Below are positions 4,548-13,261 of a stretch of DNA of 64,000 nucleotides, in pieces. Position numbers and translations under genes: made by a program. The notes beneath the pieces were generated by a model. It was not told the DNA's origin. It did not search any database and worked only from the letters and a program-made list of their open reading frames with translations. The stretch's first letter is position 1. Every line of letters starts with the position of its first letter. Source of the stretch: Fidelibacterota bacterium MT.SAG.3 (lineage in GTDB: Bacteria > Fidelibacterota > SORT01); assembly GCA_004402895.1 (NCBI GenBank), contig SORT01000002.1, positions 19,763 to 83,762 of the forward strand, given 5' to 3'.

Positions 4548-4910
4548 ATTTTAAATGATGCGCGGTCAGGATGCCTTTGCCGATGGCGGGATTATGAAAA
4601 TCCTGACTTTTTAAACTCTTAATTTTCATAAACATATGAGTTCTGAGACGCGAAAAATGTGTATCTAAAACGACCGTTATTGATACAAAAATCCACTGTC
4701 TCAAAAGCTAATTGTCAGAAAATCTCGTTTTCATGAGTTTTGTGCAATTGATAGACATCAAAATGGTCTGTTACAAGTTGGGTTTGTGAGATTGAATTAC
4801 GTCATTGGGGATACAACTTATGAAATTCATTTTCTTTGGGTATAACTTTGAACTAAATTTTAATTAAATGGAAGTTATGTAAATCTAAACTAAATCAAGC
4901 GAGCAATCAG
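4548..4910. other. Intergenic region with first copy of a dispersed repeat
   Basis: 363 bp without a supported gene. It holds the first copy of the repeat with exact core 4693-4721. A GAGAC/GTCTC pair flanks its interior. No convincing promoter or terminator was seen. Confidence 0.6.
4693..4721 (+). repeat. 29-bp repeat, copy 1
   Basis: CCACTGTCTCAAAAGCTAAT followed by TGTCAGAAA is identical to 5818-5846 in the same orientation. Weaker similarity extends about 65 bp upstream (shared ATAAAC and AAAATGTGT) and about 15 bp downstream. The two copies bracket the UGA-interrupted lipoprotein gene. Confidence 0.8.
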
Positions 4911-5504: not shown

Positions 5505-5817
5505 TATATTTATTTGGCTACTCATCATATGCTCTATTTGCACGGTTAATATAGTATAATCTATATGCGCTGTCAAGTAGTTTTTTAAAAAATCGACGTA
5601 AATTGTGAAATAAACCTCATAAAATGCGTTAATATAATGATACTATTGATATTAAGGTTATGTTGATATATTTTATATACTTAGTATGATATTAAGAACT
5701 ATTTGACTAATTCTGATAACTAGCCTTCGAATATAGGATTCTTACGATTTCTCATAAACGTGTAAGTTTTGGCACAAAAAAATGTGTCTCATAAACCTTG
5801 GTTAATAAGACAAAAAA

Positions 5818-5846
5818 CCACTGTCTCAAAAGCTAATTGTCAGAAA
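5818..5846 (+). repeat. 29-bp repeat, copy 2
   Basis: Identical to 4693-4721 in direct orientation. It ends 52 bp before the 83-bp site, whereas copy 1 has no clear site after it. Confidence 0.8.
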
Positions 5847-5898
5847 CTCTCGATTTCATGATCTTTGATTAGATTGTCAAAATCCCTCATTTTCTGCG

Positions 5899-5981
5899 AA
5901 TTCACTACATTTCTTGGGTTATATCGTGAGTTTTGCTCATAATTAGCGACTAATATCGTGAGTTCTTTGTGTAATGTAGTG
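5899..5981 (-). repeat. 83-bp site, copy 1 (att-like)
   Basis: On the minus strand it begins CACTACATTAC and ends AATGTAGTGAATT, a 9-bp inverted repeat at the ends (CACTACATT / AATGTAGTG). Inside are two direct copies of ACTCACGATAT 32 bp apart, and the outer arm ACTCACTACAT is a third variant. It aligns without gaps to 11345-11427 (66 of 83 positions by my count) in opposite orientation. It sits directly behind the integrase gene. The build of outer inverted arms plus internal direct repeats is typical of recombinase accessory sites. Confidence 0.75.
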
Positions 5982-6028
5982 AGTTTCGGGTCCGTTTAAT
6001 ATCATAGTAAAAGTAGGGCATCTCAGCC

Positions 6029-6637
6029 CTATTCTTCATCTGATTCCAGATTCTTTAATGCTTCTTCCACGTCTGTATCCATCACATCAGCATATACCTG
6101 AGTAACCGTCGGTGAACTATGACCGAGTTGCCTCTGCACAAGCCTGAGATTATACCCGCTCGCTTTATAGAGATTTGTTGCATAGGTATGTCGTAGTGAA
6201 TGAATTGAGTAGTGAGCGGAAATCCGCGCTCTTTTCGCCCATTTTTTAAAGACCTGCTGTATTCCAGACCGTGTCATCCTCTCCCCTCGCTCTGAAGGAA
6301 AGAGGTACTGTGAGTTAATAGATCGATAATCTAAGAATTCTATGATATGCTTCTTCAAATTTGATCCAATATCGACAACTCGATCTTTCCCTCCCTTGCC
6401 GTTTTTCACATGGATCGAACTCTGACCTCTCTTGAGGTAGAGACCCTCAATTTTTAAGTTCGCCATTTCCGAGACGCGTAGCCCAGATCCGAGTGCTAAC
6501 TCAATTATCAATGCATCCCGGACTGGCGCTTGTACTCCTCTCGATTTTGCGATTGTCGCTGCTTCACTGCAAGTCTTTCGAAGTTGTTTTGTTTCTTCCG
6601 GAGTTAAGAATTTATCCGGTGTTAGAATCCAATTCAT
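6029..6637 (-). CDS. Short tyrosine recombinase (phage integrase family), catalytic domain only
   Basis: The protein is 202 residues; ATG 6637 has a strong AAGGAGG. The complete catalytic set of the XerC/D-lambda integrase family is visible: Arg in GSGLRVSEM, Lys in NGKGGKDR, HSLRH (His and Arg), LGHSS (His) and the nucleophile in TQVYAD. Family members of ~300 residues carry an N-terminal SAM-like core-binding domain; here only ~30 residues precede the catalytic fold, so it is a catalytic-domain-only recombinase or an N-terminally truncated one. The good SD and intact frame suggest it is expressed. It lies between the 83-bp site and an 11-bp repeat array, both plausible binding targets. It probably excises, integrates or inverts the surrounding segment. 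Confidence 0.9.
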   Translation of the reverse strand: MNWILTPDKFLTPEETKQLRKTCSEAATIAKSRGVQAPVRDALIIELALGSGLRVSEMANLKIEGLYLKRGQSSIHVKNGKGGKDRVVDIGSNLKKHIIEFLDYRSINSQYLFPSERGERMTRSGIQQVFKKWAKRARISAHYSIHSLRHTYATNLYKASGYNLRLVQRQLGHSSPTVTQVYADVMDTDVEEALKNLESDEE

Positions 6638-7049
6638 GGTTAAGTCCTCCTTCGAGGTTCTTATACCATATTATTTTCAATCAAGACTTGGAGGAAGTAA
6701 GGATCATTCTTGGGCAATACTTAATCGATACTTGGAGCATACTTGAGCAATTCTTGGAAGTTACTCATTATAGTTCTAATCCGATTCTTTTCGGATTTTC
6801 TAGATATTCTTGGTATAATCTATTGTTATTATTTCACTTACCTAAAACAAAGGTCGGTTGTAGGAATGAAAAAGAAAAGCTTTATCTTTATGTTATTATT
6901 ATACTTACAAGATTATATCCTATGATAGCTCATTTCAATTTATCAGAAATGTAAACTCTATATATTGTGAATAGCCCTTGCGAATATACCAAATATGGGG
7001 TATCTTATATGTCGATTAAAAGATAAATAATGGAATTGGAGAATCAAAA
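6638..7049. other. Integrase upstream region
   Basis: 412 very AT-rich bases between the divergent integrase and HNH genes. They hold the 11-bp array and a TATAAT at 6814-6819 (plus strand) without a clear -35. The track ORFs 6493-6954 and 6743-6925 run through this region but have no domain and cross the array, so I do not call them. Confidence 0.5.
6686..6762 (+). repeat. Seven-unit 11-bp helically phased repeat array
   Basis: Units start every 11 bp at 6686, 6697, 6708, 6719, 6730, 6741 and 6752. The clearest are ACTTGGAGGAA, TCTTGGGCAAT, ACTTGGAGCAT, ACTTGAGCAAT and TCTTGGAAGTT, with consensus (A/T)CTTGG(A/G)GCAT; unit 2 is degenerate. The period is close to one helical turn, so all copies face the same side of the DNA. 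The array lies 49-125 bp upstream of the integrase start, where regulator, excisionase or integrase arm-type sites are expected. Confidence 0.65.
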
Positions 7050-7313
7050 ATGGCTAGCAAAAAGAAAATTGAACAAGCTTGGGATAAAGCCAAACCTATC
7101 AGGGGTAAAAATCCTGATTCGTGGCGTAAGGATAAATTTGGTAACAAAATTAGGCATGGTTCATATGGTACTGAGGGCGATTATGGATGGGAGTTAGACC
7201 ATAAAAATCCACAATCAAAAGGAGGTTCCAACAAACCGCAAAATATTCAACCCTTACATTGGGAAGAGAATCGACAAAAGAGTGATAAATATCCCTATAA
7301 GAAGAAAAAATAA
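7050..7313 (+). CDS. Small stand-alone HNH nuclease
   Basis: The protein is 87 residues and very basic; ATG 7050 has GGAG eight bases upstream. The C-terminal half holds the HNH core: WELDHKNPQSKGG, then NIQPLHW and an Asn in EENRQKSD. This ELDH...G...N...N arrangement is the beta-beta-alpha metal finger with its catalytic His present. No Cys zinc knuckle is seen. There is no additional domain, so it may be a minimal nicking nuclease or toxin, or work with the following HNH protein, whose gene starts 27 bp later. It lies inside the segment bounded by the 83-bp sites. AT-richness matches the next two genes and differs from the housekeeping region. Confidence 0.75.
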   Translation: MASKKKIEQAWDKAKPIRGKNPDSWRKDKFGNKIRHGSYGTEGDYGWELDHKNPQSKGGSNKPQNIQPLHWEENRQKSDKYPYKKKK

Positions 7314-7340
7314 TGCTGAGTAGATAGCAAAGAGAATCAT

Positions 7341-8234
7341 ATGTCTATACCAAAAGCTACTCGCGACATGCTACTTGTTGAAGCACAACATCGGTGTACA
7401 GTCTGTAACGAAAAGTGCTTTGAAATTCACCACATCATAGGAAAAGCTGACGGTGGAGATGATAGCCCAGAAAATTTGATTGTTATGTGTCCAAACTGTC
7501 ATCAACATAGATATCATCGATCAGGTGAATTCACTCGAGATCAATTACGGCAATATAAGAAAAATTTACAAGACAGAAATGAAATCGAGAAAAGATTACT
7601 TCAGAATATAGAAGATCTCTGGAAAGAGATTAAAGAAAAATCCGCTGCGGAAATTAACAAGAGTTTAATCACCAAACTTGAGGACGCCAATCAATTAATT
7701 GACAAAAGCAGATCACCTAAAATTGCTCAATCAGTAAGCCAAATGGCAATAAAAATGGCGGAATTATCCATTATGCCCAATGCAGCTAGGCGTGCAATAG
7801 AAGTTAAATATGAAGTAGAGCGACAGCAACTTAAGTCAAGCGTAGATCAATTATCAGTGGTTGGGATTGATGACGATGCTTATCGTAAAAACAATAAGTT
7901 TGGTCGAGCTTACGAATTTGTCCTAATTTTGGATCATTCGCCTGATTCAGACTGGGTGAAAATATTTGACTACAATTACAAGAATAGTGGGTATTCAATG
8001 AAAAGAGAAACACATATTAGAGGTGATAGGGCTGTTATGATTATAGCAGATTCGGATGATTTACAAGCACACACGAATTGGGTAAAGAAGTTGGTTGGGG
8101 AAACAAATACATGGCTTACCACTGAGGGATATCGAAATATTGATTGCCTGATCAACGAATCTCTTCACAAAGAACTAGAACAATTTGATGCAATTCAGTC
8201 AATGAAAAAACGTACACAGAGTATAAAGATTTAA
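7341..8234 (+). CDS. HNH endonuclease with unrecognised C-terminal domain
   Basis: The protein is 297 residues. The N-terminal ~55 residues are a complete Cys-type HNH module: CTVCNEKCFEIHHIIGKADGG followed by ENLIVMCPNCHQHRH-like spacing, giving two CxxC zinc pairs, the catalytic His and the Asn. A predicted coiled or helical linker (~60-145) leads to a ~150-residue alpha/beta C-terminal domain I do not recognise (RAYEFVLILDHSPDSDWVKIF). HNH plus a variable sensor domain is a layout common in restriction and phage-defence proteins, but no partner system is identified. Weak SD (AAAGAG) before ATG 7341. Probably co-transcribed with the small HNH gene. Confidence 0.75.
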   Translation: MSIPKATRDMLLVEAQHRCTVCNEKCFEIHHIIGKADGGDDSPENLIVMCPNCHQHRYHRSGEFTRDQLRQYKKNLQDRNEIEKRLLQNIEDLWKEIKEKSAAEINKSLITKLEDANQLIDKSRSPKIAQSVSQMAIKMAELSIMPNAARRAIEVKYEVERQQLKSSVDQLSVVGIDDDAYRKNNKFGRAYEFVLILDHSPDSDWVKIFDYNYKNSGYSMKRETHIRGDRAVMIIADSDDLQAHTNWVKKLVGETNTWLTTEGYRNIDCLINESLHKELEQFDAIQSMKKRTQSIKI

Positions 8235-8334
8235 AAGATAGAAATTATGCATGAATTTCACATCAACGATTTACGGAATATGAGTCACATCAAAGACCAA
8301 ACCACAATGTATAACTAAAATAAACAGAAATGAT

Positions 8335-10152
8335 TTGTGGAATAGTTTAAAGTCAACTTTCAGTAGATTACGGATATCAATCTTTAGAAAATATTTCCTT
8401 CTAAGGTACAAAGTTAAAAATTTTAGAAAAAAATATTTTTTACTAATAATTATCCTTTTCTTATTTCTGATAGTTCATATAATTCCCGTTTCCCTGAGAG
8501 CTATTCCCTTCCCTTACATTTTTTCCAATTATAGTCAGATGTTGACAATTATAGCTTCCTCCCTATCTTCAATACTGGGCATCCTCTTTGCAGTGTTGCT
8601 CGTAGCAAGCGAATTAACCAAGAAACGGTATCCTTCTTCAAGTTTTAAATCTTTGTTTAGTGACAAAGATATTATGCGTTTATTTCAAATATTTATTTCT
8701 ACTATTTTAATATCTATTTATACGCTATTAGCCTTAAATCCTAGTACTTCATCCCAGGTGATTAATGATAACCTCACTCATTTTAGTTTGATTTTATTTA
8801 TGTTCTGCCTCTTATACATTTACCCTACCTTGAAGAAAGTAATAATCTCTACCGTATCAAAAACAGAAATAAAAACGCTTGCAAATCAAATTAACATTCA
8901 GCACGTCTTTCAATTAGATCAGAATAGAGCCCGATCCGAACCGACAATGTTTTATTCTTTTGCAGAAGATAATCCAATCATTAAACTTTCAGAAATATCG
9001 ATGACAAGCATTAAAAGTGGCGACATTATTACTCCCAAGATTGTAATCGGAGAGGCTACGAACGCGCTTATAAGTTTATTAGACCGAAATAATGCTTCAT
9101 ACGACACTAGAAACTACATCAGCGGGTTTTCTGCAATATTCAATGTTACAGTGACTCATGCCATCAAATCTGACCAAAGAGGCACATTAAGTAATGTCAT
9201 AAATAGTTATGAGCGAATTCATAAATATTGTGCTGAAAACAAGTTTCCCCATTATGAATTAACTGAATTGAACGAGCAGCTAAAGGCTATTATAAGCAGA
9301 ATCATAAAATCTAATTTAGATGATGTAGCACATGATTGCATCTGGTCAATTAGAAATATCTTTGGATACCATTTACGACATAACATTCCCGAAGAGAAGG
9401 ACATAACATTCTTTAGCAAGAATTATGAAAATCCTAATCGGGATCTCGACAGCCAATGGCACGCAATTAGCACTGAGTATTTGAGAATGATTTACTATTT
9501 AACTAAGGAATGTATCGCTCTTGGTAAAGGAGATTTAACAATAAAATTCATTAATTGCCTATCTTCAATCCCAGAAATGATTGAGAGATCTAGTTTAGGA
9601 AATCAACAAATAAAATCAATGTATCAATCTTGTTACTATTACTTATATGATCTAGCTGTCCAAAGCATCAAGTCGGGAATAATAAATGAATTTGAAAAGC
9701 CTAGCATATTTTCCATGCTTCATCTTACATCATTGATCAAAAGTGAAAAGGATTGTGTTCAGGTCCCATTTCATTACTTTGGAGAATATCTATTCATTCT
9801 CACAGAAAATAGATTGCTAGATCAATTCTTATTAAATGAATTTATTGCAACAGGTCGAACTTGCCTGTCCGAAAATAGTAATTCAAAGTTAAATCTCGAA
9901 TCAATATTATACATAATAAGTATATTAAGCAGGATTAAGGACAAATTAGAAGGCATGGAAGATCCATTTAGATCTAAATTATATGTAGAATTATACTATC
10001 AAGTTGGATCACTAATTAAATGGCAAAATACGGAGAATTTTACTAATGAAAGGGTTCAAAATGAACTATCAGCTCTAACTAATAGTTTTAATCGAATAGA
10101 TGAGTTTAAACTTAATATGAATGAGTTGAGTGTAGAATGGCCAGGGATTTGA
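8335..10152 (+). CDS. Multi-pass membrane protein with large cytosolic domain, DUF2254-like N-terminus
   Basis: The protein is 605 residues from a TTG start; no in-frame ATG occurs before about residue 69 and no SD is obvious, so the start is uncertain. A basic N-terminus is followed by about four hydrophobic segments (~35-55, ~68-92, ~115-133, ~150-168). The second, LTIIASSLSSILGILFAVLLVASEL, resembles the DUF2254 membrane family. The remaining ~430 residues are soluble, helical and unrecognised. It lies 100 bp behind the HNH gene on the same strand and shares its low GC. A membrane-anchored protein next to nucleases in a mobile segment could be a membrane-acting effector, but that is speculation. 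Confidence 0.6.
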   Translation: MWNSLKSTFSRLRISIFRKYFLLRYKVKNFRKKYFLLIIILFLFLIVHIIPVSLRAIPFPYIFSNYSQMLTIIASSLSSILGILFAVLLVASELTKKRYPSSSFKSLFSDKDIMRLFQIFISTILISIYTLLALNPSTSSQVINDNLTHFSLILFMFCLLYIYPTLKKVIISTVSKTEIKTLANQINIQHVFQLDQNRARSEPTMFYSFAEDNPIIKLSEISMTSIKSGDIITPKIVIGEATNALISLLDRNNASYDTRNYISGFSAIFNVTVTHAIKSDQRGTLSNVINSYERIHKYCAENKFPHYELTELNEQLKAIISRIIKSNLDDVAHDCIWSIRNIFGYHLRHNIPEEKDITFFSKNYENPNRDLDSQWHAISTEYLRMIYYLTKECIALGKGDLTIKFINCLSSIPEMIERSSLGNQQIKSMYQSCYYYLYDLAVQSIKSGIINEFEKPSIFSMLHLTSLIKSEKDCVQVPFHYFGEYLFILTENRLLDQFLLNEFIATGRTCLSENSNSKLNLESILYIISILSRIKDKLEGMEDPFRSKLYVELYYQVGSLIKWQNTENFTNERVQNELSALTNSFNRIDEFKLNMNELSVEWPGI

Positions 10153-10480
10153 TTTATATTTCATGTTATTAAACACTTTCTTTATTAGTCTTGAACTGAA
10201 CATCCACTCCCCCACATCCTTCCAACGCTTTTTATACCTCAAAGGTGAACCAAATGGTTAGCTTTCCCACTTGTTAATCTTAGAAGCGCTTATTGCTCTC
10301 CTTTTATTTCAACAACACCATCTTCCTCGTCTAGACGAAATCGCCTTCTACAAGTCCGGAAATTTCAGTCTCATAATAAGATATGCTTATGTATCAGAGA
10401 GTTAGGCATTTCGCTTGCATTCTCGAGTACGATGAGTTATTCTTGAACACGTATTTAATCGAACAACCGGGAGTGAAACA
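10153..10480. other. Intergenic region; start of the duplicated block
   Basis: From 10402 the sequence belongs to the duplicated block also found from 11518 (shared TAGCATTTCGCTTGCATTC-type leader and CCGGGAGTGAAAC before the ATG). Bases 10153-10401 show no supported gene or signal. Confidence 0.6.
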
Positions 10481-11112
10481 ATGATACATAACCACCGAAT
10501 TCTTTATTTACTCATAATAATGCTTTCCGTGCCTTTTCTGGTGGGTTGTACGACAGCACCTCCGCCACCTCCTCTGGATACATCAGCTGCGGACAGTCGG
10601 GCTATAGAAGCTGCCAGCGCTCAGTGGGTTGATGCTTTCAACCAGGGTGATACAGCAGCTCTTGCCGCACTTTACACAGAAGAGGCAAAACTTCTTCCGC
10701 CAAACAGCCAAATGATTGTCGGTAGGGAGGGTATACAAGCCTTTTTCCAAGGTAGCTTCGACGCTGGTGAAGCGAAGGTACAACTCACAGTGATAGAGCT
10801 TTCTGTGAGTGGAGACATAGCGCATGTGGTCGGCAAATATACATTCACCCTGCAGCCCGAAGATGGTGAGGCTATCAGCGATAATGGTAAGTACGTGGAG
10901 ATATGGAAGCGTGAAAACGGTACATGGATAATGGATAAGGATATCTGGAACTCAAGCGTACCGCGTCCTACCGCTGAAAAAGAAGAAGAAGAAGAACTGT
11001 AGACGTAAATACAGGCTGTTATCAGCCTAATTACCTCAACGGGAGAAACTCTAAACGCCTAATTTCTAAGGGCTTAGGTGATCGTGTGGTACTGCCCCCC
11101 CGGACAATGTTC
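10402..11112 (+). repeat. Duplicated lipoprotein block, copy 1
   Basis: About 710 bp comprising a leader, a DUF4440-like lipoprotein gene and a 3' flank ending in TGCCCCCCCGGACAATGTTC, matched by 11518-12226. The final 20 bp are identical in both copies. Coding parts have diverged, so the duplication is not recent. Confidence 0.8.
10481..11002 (+). CDS. SnoaL/DUF4440-like (NTF2 fold) lipoprotein, copy 1
   Basis: The protein is 173 residues with GGGAG upstream of ATG 10481. Signal peptide LLIIMLSVPFLVGC gives a lipidated Cys at ~23, followed by a Pro-rich linker. Residues ~40-160 match the NTF2-like DUF4440/SnoaL pattern: an ending helix AxxWVDAFNQGDTAALAALY, then strands with VGREGI and a terminal WKRENGTWIM. 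NTF2-like folds bind small ligands or act as polyketide-type cyclases; no catalytic residues can be assigned, so no function is claimed. A Glu-rich tail ends the protein. A diverged copy lies 1117 bp downstream. Confidence 0.85.
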   Translation: MIHNHRILYLLIIMLSVPFLVGCTTAPPPPPLDTSAADSRAIEAASAQWVDAFNQGDTAALAALYTEEAKLLPPNSQMIVGREGIQAFFQGSFDAGEAKVQLTVIELSVSGDIAHVVGKYTFTLQPEDGEAISDNGKYVEIWKRENGTWIMDKDIWNSSVPRPTAEKEEEEEL

Positions 11113-11134
11113 GGGCTCACCCGGACTGAGCCCG
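11112..11134 (+). terminator. Strong GC-rich hairpin behind lipoprotein copy 1
   Basis: CGGGCTCA-CCCGGAC-TGAGCCCG forms an 8-bp perfect stem about 110 bp downstream of the stop. No U-run follows, so it may be an RNA-stabilising or Rho-assisted end rather than a classic intrinsic terminator. A smaller stem (AGGCTG-TTAT-CAGCCT, 11013-11028) lies directly behind the stop codon. The large hairpin is not conserved behind copy 2. Confidence 0.4.
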
Positions 11135-11344
11135 TGAGGGTAGGCTGTAAGTGTTGGTAATAGTACGTTTTGTCATAACCTGAAATGTAGCTAGATTTGC
11201 CTTCTACTAGGTATATCATTTGATTTGAACAAGTTTCATTTTACGGTTCAAGATTGGATATATAAGGGCATATATATTCTGTTTTTTCAGAGACCTATCC
11301 CAATTTGCCCTACTATTGTTCTAAAGTTAAACCGACTGCGAACC

Positions 11345-11427
11345 CACTACATTACCCAATGGACTCACGATATTACTCACAGATTTTCAGCAAAACTCAG
11401 GATATTTGCGTTGAAATGTGGTGAATT
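11345..11427 (+). repeat. 83-bp site, copy 2 (att-like, inverted relative to copy 1)
   Basis: It starts CACTACATTAC and ends AAATGTGGTGAATT, with ACTCACGATATTA and AAAACTCAGGATAT inside. It aligns without gaps to the reverse complement of 5899-5981. The pair encloses 5982-11344. Copy 2 has one mismatch in its right arm (GTGGTG versus GTAGTG) and one in its second internal repeat, suggesting decay or a different role. Confidence 0.75.
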
Positions 11428-11517
11428 TCGAATAATCACAATCGATATTATGATATTCTTAAAGCAGAATGTGTAGCTTTGGATCTATTACAACTTTTGT
11501 TAGCAAAGCCACAGGAA

Positions 11518-12226
11518 GTTAGCATTTCGCTTGCATTCCCGATGGACAATGAGTTATTCTTGGATACGTATTTAATCAAACTACCGGGAGTGAAACTATG
11601 ATACATAACCACCCAATACTTTTTTTACTCGTTCTAATGCTTGCCGTACCCATTCTTTTGAGTTGTACGACAGCGCCACCACCAGATACCACTGCTGAGG
11701 ACACTCAAGCTATAAATGCTGTCATAAAGCAGTTTGTCGATGCTTTCAACCAGGGTGATGCAGCTGCTGTTGCCGCACTTCACACAGAAGAAGCAAAACG
11801 TCTTCCGCCAAACAGTCCACTGATTGTCGGTAGGGAGGGTATACAAGCTTGGATGCAAGCCAGCCACGACGCAGGCTTAGGAAATTTACAACTTACAGTG
11901 ATAGACCTTCATGTGAATGGTGATATGGCACACGTGGTCGGCAAGTACACGCTCACCATACAGCCCGAAGAAGGTGAGGCTATCAGCGATAATGGCAAAT
12001 TCGTGGACTTATGGAAGCGTGAAAACGGTACCTGGAAGATAGATGTGAACATCTTTAACAGCAGTGTACCGCTTCCTGCCCCTGAAGAAGAAATGACAGA
12101 AGAAGAATAACTGCAGAGAAGAACAGAGGCTGTTTTCAGCTTAATCAGCTCAAAGGCAAAAACTCTAAATGCCTAATTTTTAATGGTTTAGGCGATCGCT
12201 TGATGTTGCCCCCCCGGACAATGTTC
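11518..12226 (+). repeat. Duplicated lipoprotein block, copy 2
   Basis: Direct repeat of 10402-11112, with the same leader and the same 20-bp end (12207-12226). The two copies are separated by ~405 bp that contain the 83-bp site. Confidence 0.8.
11598..12110 (+). CDS. SnoaL/DUF4440-like lipoprotein, copy 2
   Basis: The protein is 170 residues and, by eye, about two-thirds identical to copy 1 (10481-11002) along its whole length. Same signal peptide type (LLVLMLAVPILLSC), shorter Pro linker, same NTF2-like core (FVDAFNQGDAAA, VGREGI, WKRENGTWKID) and acidic tail. The leader GGGAGTGAAAC before the ATG is also conserved. Both reading frames are intact and substitutions look spread out rather than disruptive, so both copies are probably functional. 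The ligand or reaction is unknown. Confidence 0.85.
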   Translation: MIHNHPILFLLVLMLAVPILLSCTTAPPPDTTAEDTQAINAVIKQFVDAFNQGDAAAVAALHTEEAKRLPPNSPLIVGREGIQAWMQASHDAGLGNLQLTVIDLHVNGDMAHVVGKYTLTIQPEEGEAISDNGKFVDLWKRENGTWKIDVNIFNSSVPLPAPEEEMTEEE

Positions 12227-12362
12227 TGGTTTGCTAAGAATGGAGACTGCCCTAGAATAAAGAAACAGGCGAGAACGCTAACTGAGTATCACTCTCTTTT
12301 CTACGTGCTATCCGATGTTTAGAGGGCCACAGGAAAATCCATTAGACTGGCTCTCCTGTACC

Positions 12363-12875: not shown

Positions 12876-13261
12876 TGCACCTTCTTGAACTAATTAACTA
12901 ATATAACCAGCTATAACTCTATGATCCGTTTTCTAAGTTAGTATCTTGATATTTGGAAGATACTCTAAGTCACTGCCATCAGTCAATAGGAATGTCATGG
13001 TCGATACTTAGTTGGGAAACATCGCCATATGAGACTGTATCTGCAACAAGTAATAATAAAAGGCTGACAATCATCGACTGCCAGCCCCTTCTTGCTATGA
13101 GATGGATTGGATATAAAAGGACACTTATGTATCCAGTTTTATGAATTAGCTATTTATGATGCAATATTTAGTTATACTTCGATTATGTTATGAAAGTCGA
13201 AGTAGAGTTATTAGAAAATTTTTAATTTTATTGTAAAGCTAAACCAAAACATTTAAGGCAT
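12876..13261. other. Intergenic region behind fumarase with terminator
   Basis: 386 bp containing the minus-strand terminator at 13062-13086 and an 8-bp inverted repeat TACTTCGA...TCGAAGTA (13175-13204, 14-nt centre) between it and the fumarase stop. No gene is supported here. Confidence 0.6.
13054..13086 (-). terminator. Rho-independent terminator of the aconitase-DJ1-fumarase operon
   Basis: On the minus strand GGCTGGCAGTC-GAT-GATTGTCAGCC forms an 11-bp stem (three G-T pairs) with a tight loop, followed by TTTTATTATT. It lies ~176 nt beyond the fumC stop and has the right orientation for that operon. Confidence 0.65.

Follow-up and report, generated by a model that had tools for sequence, protein, structure and literature searches.

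We propose that the DNA analysed here encodes an Xer-type tyrosine recombinase with a complex recombination site of its own, approximately 85 bp long, and that the segment between two inversely oriented copies of this site represents one module which the system may be able to move. Judging from the sequence comparisons described below, we assign this reading a probability of roughly 55%. The window, i.e. the whole stretch of 64,000 nucleotides under study, belongs to a genome (Fidelibacterota bacterium MT.SAG.3) that is available as a MAG of 1.75 Mb with a completeness of 69%; the sister genome is a single-cell assembly. The relevant features are compiled in Table 1.

Table 1. Positions of the two sites, their parts and the neighbouring genes in the window.
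Feature	Position	Strand	Remarks
Left site (winL), recombinase-adjacent	5898..5986	-	box 1 at 5974-5986, box 2 at 5953-5965
winL core	5898-5933	-	6-bp centre CCCAAG at 5913-5918
winL inner flank TTAAACGGACC	5987..6020	-	part of the 122-nt inverted repeat
Tyrosine recombinase, 202 aa, catalytic domain only, Xer-like	6029..6637	-	all six catalytic residues present
HNH protein, 87 aa, cargo	7050..7313	+	PF01844, E=4e-6
HNH protein, 297 aa, cargo	7341..8234	+	
Membrane protein, 605 aa	8335..10152	+	weak DUF2254 match
DUF4440/SnoaL-like lipoprotein, copy 1, between the sites	10481..11002	+	48% GC; missing from the original prediction
winR inner flank GTTAAACCGAC	11306..11339	+	part of the 122-nt inverted repeat
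Right site (winR)	11340..11428	+	box 1 at 11340-11352, box 2 at 11361-11373
winR core	11393-11428	+	6-bp centre GCGTTG at 11408-11413
DUF4440/SnoaL-like lipoprotein, copy 2, just outside winR	11598..12110	+	syntenic in G001, G002 and G004

The recombinase had been described from the sequence alone as a catalytic domain with a full active site, and this description holds. Residues 9-186 match PF00589 (E=1.1e-37), an N-terminal core-binding domain is absent, and 14 orthologues all retain R54, K81, H146, R149, H173 and Y182. The enzyme thus has the catalytic fold with the R-K-H-R-H/W-Y residues by which the tyrosine recombinase superfamily is defined, and the structures nearest to it by sequence are of the XerC/XerA type. 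The match to the XerC and XerD models begins only at model position 102-111 and stays far below their cut-offs (123.7 bits compared to 335 for XerC, 122.1 bits compared to 330 for XerD). These scores and the missing N-terminal domain place the enzyme outside the chromosomal XerC/XerD recombinases. It is not an integron integrase IntI either (85.1 bits, cut-off 265, TIGR02249).

All nearest named relatives of the recombinase are Neomarinimicrobiota, and it is present in 18 of the 245 genomes (7%) of this group. An origin from phages or plasmids was considered and rejected, as no relative above 37% identity occurs among the best listed matches in the phage and plasmid collections; viral contigs reach at best 35% over the conserved part of the enzyme, short segments aside. 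Behind the small recombinases of Salinibacter plasmids (37%), no four-box site of the kind described below is found. The contig G000:C44 (L085:1-114) starts within a second recombinase of the same family (63% identity over residues 160-197), and no four-box site was noticed behind it.

The two sites in the window were predicted to be inversely oriented and to agree at 66 of 83 positions without gaps, and this count is exact (5899-5981 on the minus strand, 11345-11427 on the plus strand). The inverted outer arms and the inner ACTCACGATAT direct repeats are likewise present as described. The inverted repeat is prolonged inward to an imperfect repeat of 122 nt with 75% identity (5899-6020 and 11306-11427; BLAST E ~3e-18 within the own genome). 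Aligned copies reveal that each site consists of four recombinase-type boxes with spacings of 21, 32 and 6 bp. Boxes 1 and 2 are direct repeats 21 bp apart, box 3 follows 32 bp beyond, and boxes 3 and 4 are inverted arms of 15 bp which flank a centre of 6 bp, which makes the core dif-like. A TTAAAC-type motif ahead of box 1 is conserved in many copies. Between the end of the recombinase match and the start of the left site lie 42 bp.

To relate the site to the enzyme without a prior model, approximately 260 bp behind each recombinase gene were scored for four similar 13-mers in 27 geometries. The 18 loci included are non-redundant, reach 50% recombinase identity or more and have sufficient downstream sequence. 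Eleven of the 18 loci (61%) score between 42 and 63, and all eleven choose 21/32/6 out of the 27 geometries. Shuffled sequences (five per locus) score 32-46; the lowest of the eleven loci (42) lies inside this range by its score, and this site is backed by its geometry and position. A site of the same geometry is therefore located 31-85 bp behind the gene in 11 of 18 relatives across Neomarinimicrobiota, and the other seven have no recognisable adjacent site in the approximately 260 bp behind the gene. The box sequences vary by clade (CTCACTACAT, TTCACCACA, ACTGGMTAGAT). Site identity tracks recombinase identity over the eleven loci (Mantel r=0.72, p=5e-5), to which shared descent contributes as well.

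This recurrence behind orthologous recombinases is in agreement with the arrangement originally suspected. It supports the notion that the two sequences are recombinase-type sites and that the left one is probably cognate to the adjoining enzyme. We also considered a dispersed intergenic repeat or regulatory operator which lies beside the recombinase gene by chance. While the sites of family f18 do sit between ordinary genes without such a recombinase, position and geometry are conserved behind the gene at eleven loci, and the 6-bp centre possesses a class structure; we regard this as the least probable of the explanations weighed here.

The class structure becomes apparent from the comparison of 29 sites. 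The six columns of the centre are variable and the arms are conserved, with a mean entropy of 1.44 bits compared to 0.49 and 0.93 bits for the two arms. The centres nevertheless recur as whole words: TCTCTG and CTGTAG occur four times each, GCGTTG and CCGTGG three times each, and TATACA is found at two independent loci and in one orthologous copy. In total 21 pairs of identical centres were observed, whereas column shuffles predict 1.9 (2000 shuffles, maximum 11). Classes are common to different genomes, and the right site is 86% identical to one of the sites on contig C12 (C12b) outside the centre, with a different centre. Within this genome, winR falls into one centre class with site C12a, and the site on C36 into one with C12b. 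Some other column windows beat their shuffles too, so that part of the class signal represents shared descent; overall relatedness alone would still not seem to be a full explanation. Conserved arms around a variable centre that falls into classes are the pattern one would expect of a strand-exchange region. For dif it is reported that cleavage and exchange are defined by the 6-bp central region,PMC5357621 and Xer recombination at plasmid dif (pdif) sites requires identical or nearly identical spacers.PMC13141974

The centres of the left and right site share two of six positions. Efficient inversion between both sites is therefore not expected, and we consider it disfavoured. The original prediction was inversion of the 5.4 kb by the recombinase, in accordance with the inverted orientation of the sites, the position of the gene inside the segment and the size of the enzyme, since the FimB/FimE invertases are also of catalytic-domain-only size. 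Apart from the different centres, two observations argue against this view: the enzyme does not belong to the Fim-type DNA invertases (37 bits, cut-off 221), and no inverted allele was seen in the same-genus genome G002. An invertible segment thus appears improbable.

Further copies of the site occur well beyond the window. The own genome contains four more, three of them on contig C12 in the same orientation and one on contig C36. Three copies are present in G002, and G001, G003 and G004 have none. The seven sites of these two same-genus genomes lie away from the recombinase gene and in varied contexts. With a sequence model derived from 11 sites, matches were obtained in 15 of the 245 Neomarinimicrobiota genomes (6%), mainly in one other family (f18) and at most seven per genome. 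Approximately 20 further copies are found in this other family, mostly distant from any such recombinase, and several f18 genomes, including the single-contig genome G059, have sites and no close recombinase. Widespread sites with no recombinase nearby had been regarded as an argument against the whole idea. They do exist in the literal sense, yet the link to the recombinase survives them because of the conserved copy adjacent to its gene.

A further hint comes from the boundaries between genomes, at which the original prediction had looked for a discontinuity. Contig C10 of G002 follows the window with 95% identity for 1.7 kb from position 11345 outward (site, DUF4440 gene and Yip1 gene), and inward of this position its DNA is unrelated. 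G001 and G004 align with the window from 11508 outward at 96% and 91% identity, respectively, and the site is absent there. The right site thus marks a breakpoint between genomes of one genus. Its exact position cannot be set at the 6-bp centre from G002, as the identity across the site itself is too uniform (approximately 81-93%). On the left, similarity to G001 ends at 5639, and this boundary is less sharp. The recombinase of G002 adjoins other cargo, an LmuB/Mad3-like ATPase, G001 retains only a remnant (the 3' end) of the recombinase gene, and it is absent from G003 and G004. Both ends of contig C42 and the start of contig C22 of G002 (L084/L083) contain the same 55-mer from within the recombinase gene, present in both orientations; since this apparent inversion seems to truncate another gene, it is probably an artefact of assembly or whole-genome amplification.

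The predicted cargo of two HNH proteins and a membrane protein is found between the sites, and it is low in GC, with 37% in each HNH gene and 32% in the membrane protein gene compared to 41.6% in the window. The 297-aa HNH protein is not an IscB (57 bits, cut-off 175). The membrane protein possesses hydrophobic segments near residues 29-60, 69-96, 116-134 and 153-171. The DUF4440 lipoprotein gene and its flanks form a tandem duplication (10398-11115 and 11516-12229) with the right site between both copies, and a site also precedes a further DUF4440 paralogue on C36.

The three cargo genes have no homologues among the loci fetched from relatives. This, together with the similar inner flanks and the resemblance of the repeats to outward-pointing ends, would suit a transposon-like element that moves as a unit from 5898 to 11428 with the 122-nt inverted repeats as its true ends. 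However, the copies on C12 are direct and not inverted, solitary sites are common, a transposase is missing, and no empty copy of the 5.4-kb segment was found among the relatives compared. We therefore hold this alternative to be very improbable.

Among known systems, the TnpI/irs system of the Tn3-family elements Tn4430 and Tn5401 has an inverted core (IR1-IR2) and the accessory direct repeats DR1 and DR2.PMC7157771 The layout is alike, as in both cases an inverted core with two direct repeats lies beside a tyrosine recombinase gene. The Tn4430 subgroup is further defined by TnpA together with inverted repeats of 38-40 bp, whereas the genes of our segment include no Tn3-family TnpA. Here the recombinase also lacks the N-terminal domain, the site is downstream of the gene, and many dispersed copies with several centre classes are found. 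In Acinetobacter, a pdif module is a group of genes between two inversely oriented sites whose 6-bp spacers differ; one molecule carries several classes of spacer, and identical or nearly identical ones recombine.PMC13141974 Our segment likewise has an inversely oriented site at either end, and the 6-bp spacers fall into several classes. The pdif site, on the other hand, consists of two short arms (distinct 11-bp XerC and XerD arms) used by the host XerCD, and all modules of this type in the literature found are from Acinetobacter and rely on host XerCD. In the present case four-box sites of approximately 85 bp with 15-bp arms and accessory boxes are combined with a dedicated single recombinase whose gene lies within the segment; the contig is long and apparently chromosomal. 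As a Tn3 transposase is missing and the sites differ from the short ones of XerCD, the system belongs to neither group, with the layout of the former and the module logic of the latter.

Integrons offer another comparison. Next to the integrase gene, attI1 combines an inverted core with two IntI sites in direct repeat, which resembles the layout here, but the partner sites in our genomes are full copies of the same site and not folded attC. The sites are not attC themselves, which are imperfect hairpins unlike attI, as all copies follow one four-box plan. Attempts to find attC-like single-strand folding gave energies modestly below those of shuffles and structures that were inconsistent between copies. 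A mid-site hairpin was rejected as well, with weak covariation and an about equal score for a slid register. XerS/difSL, XerH/difH and XerA/dif share with our system a single recombinase and two inverted arms around a centre of 6-11 bp. These enzymes serve in chromosome dimer resolution and have an N-terminal domain, in contrast to the 202-aa recombinase. To our knowledge, accessory direct repeats and many copies have not been described for them. In the case of XerS/difSL, gene and site are linked.PMC5357621

The authors therefore propose the following mechanism for the Xer-type enzyme, which appears to be specific to Neomarinimicrobiota and would act with its catalytic domain only on the complex site. 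Two copies of the enzyme may occupy the inverted arms (boxes 3 and 4), with strand exchange taking place over the 6-bp centre. Boxes 1 and 2 keep helical phase with the core (two and three turns) and could be accessory binding sites that determine the pairing of sites. The copy next to the gene would represent the resident site and the remaining copies its partners, with efficient recombination between matching centres only. The segment from 5898 to 11428 would then be one module whose two inversely oriented end sites differ in centre class. It would be unable to invert by itself, and it could move via cointegrates with matched sites elsewhere, as do the Acinetobacter dif modules.

The main rival explanation is that enzyme and site serve to resolve multimers or cointegrates of integrative elements, comparable to TnpI/irs and XerS/difSL, and that the dispersed copies are relics of such elements. 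The irs-like layout of four boxes is an argument for it.PMC7157771 In family f3 RadC and the recombinase gene, in this order, form an operon, and the element that carries them also encodes a full-length integrase, which indicates that integration there has its own enzyme. However, the two same-genus genomes contain seven sites situated apart from the gene in varied surroundings, pure self-resolution needs no centre classes, and neither a transposase nor a full-length integrase or replication gene is present among the genes of the window segment. We consider a resolution module possible, if doubtful. The f3 recombinase is also found near a PD-(D/E)XK nuclease, a DUF932 protein and an HTH protein. 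In this family, the RadC-domain gene (L254:5273-6321; orthologues in L246, L251, L255 and L027) runs four bases into the small recombinase gene, which suggests that both form a functional pair.

Returning to the recombinase with its own site, a wider reading is a gene-shuffling system of Neomarinimicrobiota, in which the dedicated recombinase and the dispersed 85-bp sites in their compatibility classes move modules, such as the HNH and membrane-protein genes here and a defence-type ATPase in the sister genome. We put this forward tentatively. If true, the phylum would possess a chromosomal equivalent of the dif modules that has a recombinase of its own, an independent single-enzyme version in which linked recombinase, complex site and spacer classes are open to laboratory testing. 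The recognition motif could be used to locate module boundaries in uncultured marine genomes, and the system would offer a minimal tyrosine recombinase (approximately 200 aa) with matching site. The original statement that no named element has such a site is in line with our search, as no description of the site or the enzyme group was found in the literature searched, with most subscription papers outside its coverage.

We further report observations on the surroundings of the sites. The genus is rich in interspersed repeats, and the short intergenic stretches 2696-2762, 4618-4742, 5749-5867, 10302-10349, 11015-11170 and 13054-13207 of the window recur often in all four related genomes. A repeat with the core GGACGACANTCATCGACTGCCAGC directly follows some sites (L061:5132-5180, L061:8938-9060, L082:9540-9606, L114 and L115) and occurs in G001 and G004 without a site; other elements may use it as their attachment sequence. 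Approximately 3 kb from site C12a, L061:985-2028 encodes an NgoFVII-type restriction enzyme (PADLOC REase_II, E=8e-90), and L061:10997-12931, also on C12, a protein of 644 aa with weak matches to RNA polymerase Rpb2 domains. The region L112 (G002:C21:1-20000) contains an array of repeats in the same direction, one every 1-3 kb, with tRNA T-arm-like fragments (GGGTTCGATTCCCAGAC), and looks like the result of repeated tRNA-gene integration or a cassette-like array.
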